Below, in pieces: positions 11,275 through 38,310 of a DNA stretch of 64,000 nt (positions are counted from its first letter, which is position 1; each line of letters starts with the position of its first letter). The stretch is taken from NCBI RefSeq assembly GCF_003544875.1, contig NZ_CP032094.1, forward strand, positions 496,001-560,000, in the 5' to 3' direction. The notes beneath the pieces were generated by a model. That model did not search any database, had not been told where the DNA came from, and worked only from the letters and a program-made list of their open reading frames with translations. The position numbers were made by a program, and so were the translations under genes. This stretch comes from Vibrio alfacsensis. GTDB taxonomy: Bacteria; Pseudomonadota; Gammaproteobacteria; Enterobacterales; Vibrionaceae.

Positions 11275-12561
11275 GTGTCTACAAATGAAATTACAGCAAA
11301 ACGGTTGCCGAACCTGACGAGTCGTAAAGCGCTGCTGTTGTACTCCTTGCCCGTTTTAGTAGCGATTGGTATTTCTCACTCTCTTCAAGAGTCTTCACTA
11401 ACGAAAACGATCGCTCTTAACCTGCCTGAGTCGCAGGTTGTTGAAAAAATTCTTGATGCGAAAATGACCGACGTCGTTTCGCCCCCAAATTTCGAATATC
11501 AAATCCAAGCTGGTGATAACTTGAGCACCATTTTCAGTCAATTGGGCTTTGGTTACAGTTCACTGATGAAAGTGATGGAAACGGATTTGAACTTCCTCGC
11601 TTTAGATACATTAAAACCTGGCAACACCTTGCGTTTTTGGCGTGATGAATCAACTGGTGAGCTGGATAAAATGGAACTGCAGTTTTCCATTGCGGATAAA
11701 GCAGTCTACCAGCGTAATAGTGATGGTAGTTATGATTACTCTGATATATCAATCCCTGGTGTTTGGCATCAAGAGCCTTTGGTCGGCGTTGTGCATGGCA
11801 GCTTTTCATCGTCAGCCTATCGGTTAGGCCTGACGAATGCAGAAATCAGCCAAGTGGTCAATTTATTGAAAGAACAGGTTAACTTCGCCAAAGACCTACG
11901 TGCGGGTGACCGTTTTGAAGTTGTTCGCCGCGCTCAATCCATTGATGGGGTAGATACAGGTAAGAACGAAATTGAAGCGATTAAGATTTATAATCGAGGT
12001 CGTGAAATTACCGCTTATCTTCATAGCAATGGGCAGTTTTACAACGCTAAAGGGGAAAGCCTTCAACGGGCGTTCCAGCGTTACCCTGTTAGTAAAGGTT
12101 GGCGCTTGAGTTCTGGTTTCAATCCAAAACGCCTTCATCCTGTTACCGGCCGAGTAGCACCGCATAACGGCACTGACTGGGCTGTTCCGGTTGGTACACC
12201 AGTTGAGGCAACAGGGGACGGGACGGTGATCATGACTCGTAAACACCCATATGCGGGGAACTACGTTGTTATCGAGCACGGCAATAAATACAAAACACGT
12301 TACCTCCACCTGAGCAAGATTTTAGTCAAGAAAGGCCAGAAAGTGTCCCGTGGGCAGCGCATTGGTTTGTCAGGGAAAACCGGTCGAGTGACGGGCCCTC
12401 ACCTTCATTATGAGTTGATCGAATATGGTCGTCCGGTGAATGCTATGCGTGCGAATATTCCAATGGCTAGCTCAGTTCCTAAGAAAGAAATGTCCAGCTT
12501 TATTGCTAAGCGTGATGAAATGGATCGTTTACTTAAAGAACAAGAAAAAGCAGTGCTATAA
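11275..12561 (+). CDS. shyA: M23 family murein DD-endopeptidase, ShyA/MepM-like
   Basis: 428 aa. An N-terminal signal-anchor (about 19-36) is followed by a LysM-like domain (YQIQAGDNLSTIFSQLG), a central domain, and the C-terminal LytM/M23 peptidase with zinc ligands in HNGTDWA and HLHYE and a further conserved histidine in RYLHL. These enzymes cleave peptide crosslinks in peptidoglycan so the cell wall can expand; V. cholerae ShyA is the best-studied relative. The start is GTG 11275 behind a strong AAGGAG site. Assignment to ShyA rather than the paralogue ShyB rests on length and domain layout. Confidence 0.85.
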   Translation: MSTNEITAKRLPNLTSRKALLLYSLPVLVAIGISHSLQESSLTKTIALNLPESQVVEKILDAKMTDVVSPPNFEYQIQAGDNLSTIFSQLGFGYSSLMKVMETDLNFLALDTLKPGNTLRFWRDESTGELDKMELQFSIADKAVYQRNSDGSYDYSDISIPGVWHQEPLVGVVHGSFSSSAYRLGLTNAEISQVVNLLKEQVNFAKDLRAGDRFEVVRRAQSIDGVDTGKNEIEAIKIYNRGREITAYLHSNGQFYNAKGESLQRAFQRYPVSKGWRLSSGFNPKRLHPVTGRVAPHNGTDWAVPVGTPVEATGDGTVIMTRKHPYAGNYVVIEHGNKYKTRYLHLSKILVKKGQKVSRGQRIGLSGKTGRVTGPHLHYELIEYGRPVNAMRANIPMASSVPKKEMSSFIAKRDEMDRLLKEQEKAVL

Positions 12562-12595
12562 AACGAGGTTAAATACCTCCAACAATAAAAGTATT

Positions 12596-12624
12596 AAGAC
12601 CAAACTATGTTTGGTCTTTTTTTT
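12596..12624 (+). terminator. Rho-independent terminator after the M23 peptidase gene
   Basis: Perfect stem AAGACCAAAC/GTTTGGTCTT with TAT loop and a run of T residues. Confidence 0.92.
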
Positions 12625-12833
12625 GTTCTTAACGTGCCGTGAGCTACCATTCTGTTATGAGGGCAGCGCAAGCAGAATAAATATATGGTAGAGGTTGAAT
12701 CTGCTTGCAAAGGAGGGGCTCTCCTTTCTAAAATGCGCACCCAATTACGCTATCTCTTATACTGACATGCACACTTATTTACGTACATGTGAAGTATGAA
12801 ATAGGTAACATCCGTTAATCGTTAGGTGAAATC

Positions 12834-13181
12834 ATGCAACAAAACGAATTTGAAGCACTACTTAAAGAAATTGGCCAGCAAGAAAATCTACCAAAGGCTC
12901 TTGAACTTCTAAAAGCATCAGAAGAGGAAGAAGTAGCACAAGCAGCGGAATCGCTTACCGGTCAATTTGGTCTCGCTGAAGTTGATGGTGAAAAGCGTAT
13001 TTACCACATCACTGTACATCAAGACGAATCAGGTGAAGAGCAAGAGTTCGTTGAGCACGTGATGAATGAAGGTGATCATTTGATCAAGTTTGCCGCTTGG
13101 TTCTTCGAGACATTCTTTGAAATCAAACAGAAAGACACCTACCAAGCTGCTGGTAAGACATACCAACAACCTAAACGTTAA
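12834..13181 (+). CDS. Conserved hypothetical acidic protein
   Basis: 115 aa, acidic N-terminal two thirds rich in Glu, with a final amphipathic region FAAWFFETFFEIKQKDTYQ. No signal peptide, membrane segment or known motif; probably a soluble cytoplasmic protein. Codon use is like that of its neighbours, and the ORF is complete. Function unknown. It is followed by the HexR-type site of the next small gene. Confidence 0.75.
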   Translation: MQQNEFEALLKEIGQQENLPKALELLKASEEEEVAQAAESLTGQFGLAEVDGEKRIYHITVHQDESGEEQEFVEHVMNEGDHLIKFAAWFFETFFEIKQKDTYQAAGKTYQQPKR

Positions 13182-13213
13182 TCATGAAGATTATTCGCTA
13201 AGATAAAATATTT

Positions 13214-13228
13214 TGTAATTAAATTACA
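13214..13228. promoter_or_regulatory. HexR-consensus operator
   Basis: TGTAATTAAATTACA matches the published gammaproteobacterial HexR consensus (TGTAAT-WWW-ATTACA) at every position. HexR senses the Entner-Doudoroff intermediate KDPG and controls central carbon genes. The site lies upstream of the candidate -35 of the following small gene, a placement more typical of activation than repression. Confidence 0.65.
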
Positions 13229-13248
13229 TTAATTATGTGACTTAGATC

Positions 13249-13276
13249 TTGTTATTGGCTTATTGTGGTGTAAAAT
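13249..13276 (+). promoter_or_regulatory. Candidate promoter of the small gene at 13315
   Basis: TTGTTA, 16 bp, TAAAAT; predicted transcription start near 13283. A second short dyad, TGTAAAATTACA (13269-13280), overlaps the -10 element. Confidence 0.45.
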
Positions 13277-13314
13277 TACAACATTACCAGTTGACGACTT
13301 CTTAGGAGAAGATC

Positions 13315-13431
13315 ATGGGTTACGAACTAGGTGGTATCTACATCGGTCAAATGATCGGTAAAGAAGCCATGCACAAAGCGCTTTACGGTAAAACTAAGAA
13401 AAGAAACCTTCTTTGTTTGCGCGAATTGTGA
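13315..13431 (+). CDS. Small protein of 38 aa (or 41 aa if a base is missing)
   Basis: ATG at 13315 follows a near-perfect AGGAGA ribosome binding site, and a clear terminator follows the gene, so expression is likely. The start GGIYIGQMIGKEAMHKALYGK is glycine-patterned, then basic. Not a known family to me. One A added to the run at 13399-13402 would change the tail to KKKKPSLFARIVKN and end at 13439, giving 41 aa; given similar losses elsewhere in the window, both ends must be considered. The HexR-type site upstream links it to carbon metabolism. Confidence 0.65.
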   Translation: MGYELGGIYIGQMIGKEAMHKALYGKTKKRNLLCLREL

Positions 13432-13451
13432 AAAATTAGCGAATTAATACG

Positions 13452-13481
13452 AAAAGCCCTGACATTAAAATCAGGGCTTTT
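13452..13481. terminator. Bidirectional terminator between the small gene and the glutaredoxin gene
   Basis: Perfect stem AAAAGCCCTGA/TCAGGGCTTTT with an 8-nt loop, A/T runs on both sides. Confidence 0.88.
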
Positions 13482-13527
13482 GCTATTTAATCTCAACTCG
13501 TGTACTTAAATCTGTTGTCTATCAAAA

Positions 13528-14142
13528 CTACGCTGATTGGTTTGGGATTGTAAGAACATTATCAGGCACTTTATCGAGCCCTTGTTCCTCTAACCACTTT
13601 TCTAAGTTGTCTGCGCCACCAATGTATTTGCCCTCCAACCAAATCTGAGGCACGGTTACTGGCGTCTTTTCTCCAATAATTGCTTTTACTTCTGGTATCA
13701 TTCGATAAAGCGCTGCACTCTCTTTAACGACATCATGATATTGGTACTCTATTCCGGTTTTATCCAACAAGCTTTTCGCTTTCACACAATAGGGGCAGGT
13801 GGCTTTGCCATATACGATATTGCCCTTGAGTTGATCTCTATTCGCCCATTGAGCAATCACAGATTGCACCAATAAACCTCGGTTTAGCGCTTCCCCTTGG
13901 CTGATGACTTTCCCCTCGACCACTAGAATAGGAGCGTGCCAAGCACCAAGCTTTAGAGGCTCCCACCAATGTGATAGCCAATCTTTTACTTCTAATTCTA
14001 CAGGAACATCGGCCAACTCATTCTCAAAGGTATCCGTTAAAATATCTTTCGTGAGCGTACATTCGCCACACGGGATGTTGACTTTGAACGGCCCCCAACT
14101 GCCTGCCCAGCGATATAGTGTAATTTTGATTGGCTGCGCCAT
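13528..14142 (-). CDS. Glutaredoxin-domain protein with an N-terminal thioredoxin-fold-like domain
   Basis: 204 aa. Residues about 105-190 are a classical glutaredoxin: IVYGKATCPYCVKAKSLLD with the CPYC redox centre, TVPQIWLEGKYIGGADNLE with the cis-proline and glutathione-binding segments. Residues 1-100 have a second motif, CGEC (about 24-27), and the strand pattern of another thioredoxin-like domain. The protein could act as a glutathione-dependent disulfide reductase with its own partner domain. Cytoplasmic; no signal peptide. Single gene. Confidence 0.82.
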   Translation of the reverse strand: MAQPIKITLYRWAGSWGPFKVNIPCGECTLTKDILTDTFENELADVPVELEVKDWLSHWWEPLKLGAWHAPILVVEGKVISQGEALNRGLLVQSVIAQWANRDQLKGNIVYGKATCPYCVKAKSLLDKTGIEYQYHDVVKESAALYRMIPEVKAIIGEKTPVTVPQIWLEGKYIGGADNLEKWLEEQGLDKVPDNVLTIPNQSA

Positions 14143-26786: not shown

Positions 26787-27023
26787 TTAATAAGGTCGGG
26801 GGTTAGGAGCAATCCAACCGCTAGCGAGTGCGATAAGTAGAAGTAAAACCACTAAGGCAGAAAACATCACTCGACGACCTAAATAGTGGCTCATTGGTTT
26901 TCCTTTGCTGTTCGGGTTTTCTGGATCTTCTTTGACCATTTCGATAAGTGCTTTTGCGAGGTTGAATATGATGAAAAGTAGCAAAAGAACAAGCGTCAAC
27001 TTGAATAGAAATACGGTGGACAT
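26787..27023 (-). CDS. DUF2909 small twin-membrane protein
   Basis: 78 aa with two hydrophobic helices (about 5-25 and 52-70) separated by a charged loop; this is the pattern of DUF2909 proteins, which commonly sit in cox clusters and are of unknown function. It is encoded on the opposite strand inside the cox operon, and its ATG (27023) overlaps the SURF1 ATG by two bases. GGAGGTGCC directly before the ATG is a strong ribosome binding site. It may have its own promoter inside SURF1. Confidence 0.8.
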   Translation of the reverse strand: MSTVFLFKLTLVLLLLFIIFNLAKALIEMVKEDPENPNSKGKPMSHYLGRRVMFSALVVLLLLIALASGWIAPNPRPY

Positions 27024-27787
27024 GGCACCTCCGATGTTACCGTTATTATTTTCGAAATGGCTTTGGTTAGCCGCCGTTTTAACTGTGGCTGTGTTTTCTC
27101 TTTTGGTCAAACTGGGCATGTGGCAATTAGATCGGGGCAATGAAAAGCAGAGATTGGAACAGGCAATGTCGACAAGAGAGAGCAAGCCCTATCAGCCAAT
27201 ATCAGATGTGTTAGAGTTGAATGACTGGCGAGAAGAAAGTGTGAATGGCGTTAAGGTAAAACAGAAGTCGTCCCAGAGCCTATTGCCGTTCTTCTGCTAG
27301 ACAATCAAATCTATAACGGGAAAGTCGGCTACTTGGCTTTTCAAGTGGTGTCTTTGCTTCAAGAACCGACGACACTGACATTACTTGAATTGGGGTTTGT
27401 TGAGGGAAAGAGCGAACGTTCTGAACTTCCAGATATTGAAACGCTAAAAACACCGCAAACCATCACAGGTCGTTTGTATCGTAAATCGACTAATCCTCTG
27501 AGTACCGATCTCATGGCTGAGATGGGTAATCCGATTCGTATTCAAAACCTTAATGTGAACCAACTGAGTCAGTTATTAAATATAGAGCTGATGCCAACGG
27601 TTTTACAGCCGGATAATTTGAAAACTTGGCCATATTCTTTCCTTGGAATCCCCTACCTTTAACCAGTGAAAAGCACTTTGGCTATTCGGTGCAATGGTTT
27701 GCTATGGCTGGGGTTTTTCTACTTATTACACTCTTAATCTTTGTTCGATGGATGCGAAGTGAGCGATCACATGGAGGTGATGTATGA
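27022..27787 (+). CDS. SURF1 family cytochrome oxidase biogenesis protein (two frameshifts)
   Basis: Reconstructed length about 255 aa. An N-terminal membrane helix (LWLAAVLTVAVFSLLVKLGMWQLDR, with the family WQxxR motif), the periplasmic body, and a C-terminal helix after HFGYSVQWFAM, as in SURF1, which supports heme A insertion into subunit I. As printed the frame breaks at 27258-27261 (AAAA) and 27638-27640 (TTT). One extra A and one extra T restore GVKVKTEVVPEPIAVLLLDN and SFPWNPLPLTSEKHFGY respectively. The final ATGA overlaps the next gene. Probably intact in the organism. Confidence 0.85.
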
Positions 27788-37360: not shown

Positions 37361-38310
37361 TTAAAGCTTAGCTTCGATCATTGCTTCTAGTTTGCCTTGG
37401 TCAATAGCGAAGTTACGGATACCTTCAGCTACTTTCTCAACAGCCATTGCGTCTAGGTTGTGCTCCCATAGGAACTCTGCGTGAGTCATTGGAGCAGGGC
37501 GCTCTTTAGAGCCTTTAGAATCAACCAACTTCTCTACAACTTCGCCTTCTGCCGCTTCTAGCTCAGCAAGAAGAGCTGGAGCGATAGTTAGACGGTCACA
37601 GCCAGCAAGTTCTAGGATCTCGCCGATGTTACGGAAGCTCGCGCCCATAACCACTGTGTTGTAGCCATGCTCTTTGTAGTAGTTGTATATGTCAGTTACA
37701 GAGATAACGCCTGGATCTTCTTGAGCTTCGAAGTCACGACCTTCTTTCGCTTTGTACCAGTCCATGATGCGACCAACGAATGGAGAAATTAGGAATACGC
37801 CAGCTTCAGCACATGCACGAGCTTGCGCGAAAGAGAATAGAAGCGTTAGGTTACAGTTGATGCCTTCTTTCTCTAGGATCTCTGCAGCGCGGATACCTTC
37901 CCAAGTAGAAGCCAGTTTGATTAGGATGCGGTCGTTAGTGATGCCTGCGTCGTTGTACATTTTTACTAGCTGGCGAGCTTTAGCAACGCTGCCTTCTGTG
38001 TCGTAAGAAAGACGAGCATCTACTTCTGTAGAGATACGACCTGGGATAGTTTTAGGATTTCTTTACCGATGTTAACCGCAAGCATGTCGCAAGTGTCTTG
38101 TACTTGTTGTGCTTTGTCGTTGCTTTGCGCTTTTGCGTATTCGATAGAAGCGTCGATCAGAGGTGCATACTCTTCAATTTGAGCCGCTTTTAGGATAAGA
38201 GATGGGTTCGTTGTCGCATCTTCAGGTTGGTACTTTTTGATTGCGTCAATTTCACCAGTGTCTGCTACTACCGTTGTTAGTTTACGAAGTTGCTCTAACT
38301 TGTTGCTCAT
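37361..38310 (-). CDS. tal: Transaldolase (frameshifted)
   Basis: About 316 aa when repaired, the TalB length. N-terminal part [22 protein letters not shown] and [18 protein letters not shown]-terminal part with the Schiff-base lysine in [17 protein letters not shown] and the [19 protein letters not shown] motif. The frame breaks in the T-run 38050-38053; one extra base gives [22 protein letters not shown] and joins both parts. Works with transketolase in the pentose phosphate pathway. A truncation of a core enzyme in a marine Vibrio would be odd, so sequence error is favoured. Confidence 0.92.

Follow-up and report, generated by a model that had tools for sequence, protein, structure and literature searches.

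A 64-kb stretch of the Vibrio alfacsensis genome (hereafter the window), which is part of contig C2 (1.6 Mb) in a three-contig assembly totalling 4.9 Mb, contains a small open reading frame (ORF) with its own predicted promoter. The ORF lies between the gene of a 115-amino-acid (aa) protein and a convergent glutaredoxin-domain gene. An earlier note on this DNA had described the ORF as an unannotated protein of 38–41 aa with a glycine-rich N-terminus, preceded by an exact consensus box of the regulator HexR, a plausible promoter with a second dyad on the -10 hexamer and a strong ribosome binding site, and followed by a terminator. Each of these features was recovered at the positions given below, and the glycine-rich N-terminus was confirmed by reading.

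12834-13181, plus strand: gene of the 115-aa protein, which usually adjoins the small ORF upstream
13214-13228, plus strand: HexR-consensus box, exact TGTAATTAAATTACA, at upstream position U; centred near -62 to -64 relative to the predicted start, a fixed position in those relatives that have the box there
13236-13251, plus strand: putative CRP-type element TGTGACTTAGATCTTG; centre 13243.5, about -39.5 to -41.5 from the predicted start
13249-13254, plus strand: -35 hexamer TTGTTA, from the promoter scan; TTGTTT is conserved in relatives
13269-13280, plus strand: perfect 12-bp dyad TGTAAAATTACA spanning the -10 hexamer; some relatives have a CRP palindrome there instead
13271-13276, plus strand: -10 hexamer TAAAAT, from the promoter scan and the conservation profile; spacer to the -35 hexamer of 16 nt
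13283-13285, plus strand: predicted transcription start, placed by the -10 spacing only
13304-13309, plus strand: ribosome binding site AGGAGA
13315-13431, plus strand: small ORF, 38 aa in the window, with ATG at 13315 and a stop codon ending at 13431; open frame of 41 codons
13452-13481, plus strand: terminator-like hairpin that scores on both strands

The small ORF represents a genuine gene. Its frame is kept among the relatives, as the earlier note had suggested checking: homologues were detected in 119 of the 196 genus genomes with the 38-aa window protein as the query and in 138 with a profile built from 43 relatives. In the 110 homologues that were read, the ATG was always at or near the profile start, the length was 44 codons in 95 (range 37–48), and AGGA, GGAG or GAGG stood ahead of the ATG in 102 loci, the window included. 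The coding signature was examined in 571 pairs of distinct 44-codon genes with 80–97% identity, pairs that are related by ancestry and hence non-independent. The 8654 differences fell on codon positions 1, 2 and 3 in the numbers 2235, 1036 and 5383, and the codon differences were synonymous in 4140 cases versus 3057 non-synonymous ones. The first 30 codons of the window copy likewise diverged from the relatives mainly at third positions. A chance ORF was ruled out by the homologues in 138 genomes together with this third-position-dominated divergence.

The family is centred on Vibrio. An order-wide draw of 295 genomes yielded matches in 15 genomes and in 2 of 99 genera, and the 64 named loci belonged to Vibrio or Vibrionales, Aliivibrio and one Photobacterium record, those closest to the window at this locus being from Vibrio. 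A protein search returned 94 proteins and added Psychromonas; the names shown were "hypothetical" or "uncharacterized" only, without a Pfam domain. Thus, the label "unannotated" holds in part, the relatives being annotated, but under such names. Among 174 loci (named and unnamed sets with partly overlapping genomes, some of the loci short), 140 had the small gene flanked by the 115-aa protein gene on its upstream side and, past its other end and on the opposite strand, by the glutaredoxin-domain gene; 21 had the glutaredoxin-domain gene alone, 5 the 115-aa gene alone and 8 neither. The 115-aa protein had nothing above the cut-off in a Pfam search. The hairpin is probably common to the small gene and the convergent glutaredoxin-domain gene, since it scores on both strands. 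A profile search of the V. alfacsensis genome gave a single match and no paralogue. Psychromonas sp. PT13 has two diverged copies, P0068 and P0087, whose name numbers (15755 and 15765) suggest that they probably lie close together. Literature searches found no description of the gene; the supplement of PMC11906056 with predicted HexR targets, where the gene may be listed, was outside these searches.

The unit is short (about 200 nt) and stands alone, and its predicted promoter and terminator together with the carbon-regulator sites would also suit a dual-function or purely regulatory RNA of the VcdRP or SgrS type, in which base pairing is the main activity and the ORF is secondary. Dual-function RNAs cluster in carbon metabolism (PMC8672173), and the 3′ part is longer in L053, the only V. 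cholerae-like locus that was read completely, which leaves room for an RNA role there. The conserved signal described above, however, sits at the codon level. In the window the terminator follows almost directly 3′ of the ORF, no run of four cytosines of the VcdR kind occurs in 13283-13481, and a search of 12560-13560 against Rfam gave eight matches up to an E-value of 5, none at the gathering score. We therefore regard a mainly RNA-based function as quite improbable.

The C-terminus of the window copy had been called ambiguous in the earlier note, which suspected a missing base, and a frame change relative to the family was indeed found. Agreement of the ORF with the family extends to about residue 29, beyond which the frame changes; relatives have intact copies of 44 codons. 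An assembly error is the likelier cause, because there are three split genes within 64 kb. The transaldolase gene is divided between frames on the minus strand (37361-37960 and 38020-38310), both pieces match TAL_FSA, and its split is probably an assembly error as well. A SURF1-family gene beside cytochrome oxidase genes is divided on the plus strand (26905-27300 and 27333-27662). The alternative is that the frame change is real and that the gene is decaying in this species, its product truncated and non-functional. The departure from the family frame near residue 30 would be expected of such a gene, and the two parts also lie in different frames in a single further sampled genome, G122 (L095); in addition, the database members P0076, P0081 and P0089 have tails that vary at the same lysine-rich stretch. 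Set against this, the two neighbouring split genes point to assembly errors, the promoter, the box and the ribosome binding site are intact, and the first 30 codons still diverge mainly at third positions; decay is thus unlikely. In P0023, a 54-aa V. parahaemolyticus protein, the C-terminal segment is in tandem repeat.

The product is modelled as a basic two-helix microprotein. AlphaFold2 placed helices, with modest confidence, at residues 3–24 and 34–43 of the relative L023. In a composite sequence the C-terminal helix was cationic and amphipathic, unlike the first (moments of 0.46 and 0.04, respectively). Searches of Pfam, NCBIfam and solved structures did not place it in a known protein family. 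The window ORF matched no family in Pfam or NCBIfam; the 43 aligned members matched five Pfam families with one or two members each (best E-value 0.018), none of them convincing and none a small-protein family; and the solved structures, searched with a profile, returned two hits, neither significant (best E-value 0.59).

Three exact copies of TGTAATTAAATTACA, that of the window among them, occur in the genome, compared with 0.008–0.03 expected from the window base composition or from Markov models. A scan of the window with three mismatches showed no enrichment (2 matches, which are one site on two strands, versus 3.9 expected); thus, the window alone proves nothing about the box. The relatives were compared in 139 loci of 138 genomes, aligned on the promoter, with 199 permuted palindromes in the same windows as the control. 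HexR-like boxes lay at two fixed positions: U, upstream of the -35 hexamer, and D, just past the predicted start, of which the window carries U only. With up to two mismatches, U alone was occupied in 34 loci, D alone in 17 and the two positions together in 10, giving 61 of 139 loci, whereas the permuted controls averaged 0.4 and reached 8 at most. The number was 34 with up to one mismatch and 75 with up to three. Conservation of the box, the second check proposed earlier, was thus found at fixed positions in a part of the relatives. A lack of conservation of frame or box, which the earlier note had named as a refutation of its reading, was therefore not borne out. When the named and unnamed sets were combined into 129 distinct upstream regions, the exact box was present, counting both orientations, in 11 of them and a box with up to two mismatches in 51; 147 permuted controls gave no exact match and, at up to two mismatches, a mean of 0.55 and a maximum of 36, which came from a control differing from the box in the spacer only. 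The nine paired boxes (up to two mismatches) were 71–74 bp apart, seven of them 72 or 73 bp. On a tree of the glutaredoxin-domain gene from 119 distinct loci, the box state required 20 parsimony changes, in contrast to a mean of 39 and a minimum of 31 for shuffled labels. The HexR box is thus inherited within clades, yet it has been repeatedly gained or lost.

The regulator itself is present. The genome has a single gene of the RpiR family (PF01418), which was assigned to HexR by NF008451 with 535.3 bits (cut-off 296). One-mismatch boxes were found about 300 bp before the malate synthase A gene and between the gene of the glutamate synthase large subunit and a divergent mnmL-like gene. These sites agree with reported HexR targets, namely aceBA in Shewanella (PMC3223726) and glutamate biosynthesis in Vibrionales (PMC5343134). 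The motif printed for V. parahaemolyticus HexR is identical to the window box (PMC11906056). The proposal that the small protein belongs to the HexR regulon is therefore supported at the level of sequence by the conserved boxes, the single HexR gene and the sites near the malate and glutamate synthase genes, and binding of HexR to the promoter is very probable. The box might instead be a chance palindrome or the site of another regulator. Two of the three exact genome sites, in the pepD region and at C2:835443, have no obvious HexR-type target, which would fit that explanation. The fixed positions, the counts far above those of permuted palindromes, the single hexR gene, the one-mismatch sites and the printed motif speak against it, and we consider it very improbable.

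At G000:C1:2429319-2429406 (L001, L017), the exact box and a two-mismatch box 73 bp away lie upstream of a pepD-type dipeptidase gene; the spacing matches that in the small-protein promoters, and by eye a CRP-like sequence lies between the boxes. The third exact box, G000:C2:835443-835457 (L003), has no apparent metabolic target in its vicinity.

On its own, the promoter scan was no better than chance, with 3 promoters found versus 2.0 in shuffled sequences. The call is nevertheless credible, because both hexamers and their spacing are conserved in a profile built from 129 distinct upstream regions. The best-conserved upstream feature of this profile was TGTGAT-n-T-A-n-A-TCTTG-TTTTT, a near-universal CRP-type element that the earlier note had missed. 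It scored at least 13 of 16 in 129 of the 139 loci, compared with 0–3 of 139 in 20 rounds of shuffling. The element has the full left half TGTGA, an A-rich left flank and a T-x-T-A core, and its right half, TCTTG, is fused with the -35 hexamer. The CRP consensus is the palindrome TGTGA-N6-TCACA, to which the left flank, the TGTGA and the T-x-T-A core of the element fit, and the left half and the spacing of this palindrome are present in nearly all loci. Given the predicted start, the element is centred at -39.5 to -41.5; activating CRP sites are centred near -41.5 or -61.5 (PMC6050953). The element reads as a predicted CRP-type site that overlaps the -35 hexamer in putative class II geometry, and CRP probably acts on the promoter.

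The same element could be an unusual core promoter or a site of another Crp/Fnr-type protein, in which case HexR alone would provide the link to carbon. In favour of this, TCTTG in the right half is conserved as strictly as the left half. In the V. cholerae CRP data, one peak has a gene number close to shyA (VCA0076). The 16-mer printed for this peak was absent from eight V. cholerae-like loci, a set that includes two duplicates. The available chromosome II rows of that chromatin immunoprecipitation sequencing table (PMC6050953), which covers 119 peaks from one medium and growth condition in another species, hold no peak assignable to the locus. On the other side, TGTGA, the A-rich flank and the T-x-T-A core fit the CRP consensus, a -35 hexamer alone leaves the invariant TC unexplained, and 27 of 138 loci have a separate CRP palindrome at the -10 hexamer. 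We consider this alternative rather unlikely, and CRP the better candidate.

The element appears to be tied to the gene. No homologue was detected in 58 genomes; 22 of them were tested, and 16 of these have the glutaredoxin-domain gene. In the 16 loci the best score of the CRP-type element was 10–12 of 16; the element being missing there, the ORF and its promoter appear to be absent together. The V. alfacsensis genome has one other exact match to the CRP/-35 pattern, at C1:1936876, with no related ORF downstream in the three frames read.

The CRP palindromes covering the -10 hexamer in the 27 loci were counted with up to one mismatch. A HexR box (up to two mismatches) was present in 4 of these 27 loci versus 57 of the 111 others, a comparison uncorrected for clade structure. 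The CRP palindrome on the -10 hexamer apparently takes the place of the HexR-like dyads of other lineages, which suggests a regulator replacement. In L049, L051, L055, L118, L146, L147 and L163-L165, the CRP-type palindrome on the -10 hexamer, about 40 bp before the ATG, reads TGTGATTAAAATCAC.

Several known systems resemble the unit. In V. cholerae, VcdP of VcdRP is a small protein of 29 aa that binds GltA (PMC8672173); our candidate is likewise a Vibrio small protein and is predicted to share its CRP control, its tie to central carbon and its separate promoter and terminator. VcdP differs from the candidate in being repressed by CRP and in that its coding RNA acts by base pairing and contains four consecutive cytosines. 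The gene described here encodes 44 aa, has no CCCC in the window unit and has additional HexR boxes, the two being compared by description, not by sequence. Identity with vcdRP was ruled out by the length (44 versus 29 aa) and the absence of CCCC in 13283-13481. AzuC of AzuCR in Escherichia coli is a CRP-linked small protein that binds the carbon enzyme GlpD; it differs in its organism and in being encoded by a dual-function RNA (PMC8672173). SgrT of SgrS/T is a small protein acting on carbon uptake by inhibition of PtsG, but it is controlled by SgrR and its ORF occurs in a subset of species (PMC8672173). Both were likewise compared by description, not by sequence. The HexR promoters of glgX and pgi in V. 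parahaemolyticus share the same box (PMC11906056). The glgX box, AGTAATTAAATTACA, lies upstream as in the window, and glgX is reported to be activated by HexR (PMC11906056). In contrast, glgX and pgi encode metabolic enzymes, and some relatives of the small gene have a second box 71–74 bp downstream.

We propose that this one-gene unit, composed of a promoter, a 44-aa ORF and a terminator, encodes a microprotein under the control of CRP and HexR that tunes a central-carbon enzyme or transporter, and assign this explanation a probability of about 0.6. The promoter would be of the sigma-70 type, with the downstream half of the CRP-type site merging with the -35 hexamer. Cyclic AMP-CRP, formed in the absence of a preferred sugar, would set the main level of expression. 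HexR, bound at the consensus box around -62 and, in many relatives, also or instead at a box just past the predicted start, would report 2-keto-3-deoxy-6-phosphogluconate (KDPG) from Entner-Doudoroff flux, and expression would follow the carbon status. The product would bind and tune a central-carbon enzyme or transporter, most likely in a manner analogous to VcdP or AzuC, and its cationic amphipathic C-terminal helix may bring it to the membrane. HexR is viewed as activating from upstream of a promoter and as repressing from downstream (PMC11906056). In the window, help with activation, at close to even odds, is favoured over repression because only the upstream box is present; repression there is possible, with somewhat lower odds. 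The box past the predicted start in relatives suggests repression or looping.

Several observations weigh against the proposed explanation. The assembly places the C-terminal helix outside the reading frame. The L023 model is weak, with a predicted local distance difference test score of 71.6 and a predicted template modelling score of 0.33, and no homologue with a known function that would fix the target was found in the searches above. The right half of the CRP-type element is TCTTG and not TCACA, which leaves the palindrome incomplete; the lack of an assignable V. cholerae peak in the available rows counts mildly in the same direction. With regard to HexR, 78 of the 139 loci have no recognised box at up to two mismatches, and, as noted, two of the three exact boxes lack a clear HexR-type target. 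By eye, no box was seen in the named Aliivibrio rows and in most of the rows that we take to be Splendidus-type and Coralliilyticus/Orientalis-type.

A more elaborate version of the mechanism, which we regard as unlikely, joins the paired boxes into a loop. HexR at two operators 72–73 bp (about seven helical turns) apart would loop the DNA around the CRP-driven promoter, with KDPG gating synthesis of the 44-aa microprotein. The microprotein would bind an Entner-Doudoroff, gluconeogenic or phosphotransferase system component and would thereby give the HexR flux sensor a fast post-translational arm, and lineages without HexR boxes would have rewired the promoter with the CRP palindrome on the -10 hexamer.

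In conclusion, the gene is predicted, from the sites in its promoter, to encode a carbon-regulated microprotein and to be a HexR target with an unusual double regulation. Carbon-regulated small proteins of the VcdP, AzuC and SgrT type act directly on metabolic enzymes or transporters. The family described here, which is present in 138 of 196 genus genomes and has a strongly conserved promoter with two putative carbon-sensor sites, is a candidate, accessible to testing, for a post-translational branch of the HexR/CRP network, and its promoters form a natural series along which HexR sites and CRP sites seem to swap.
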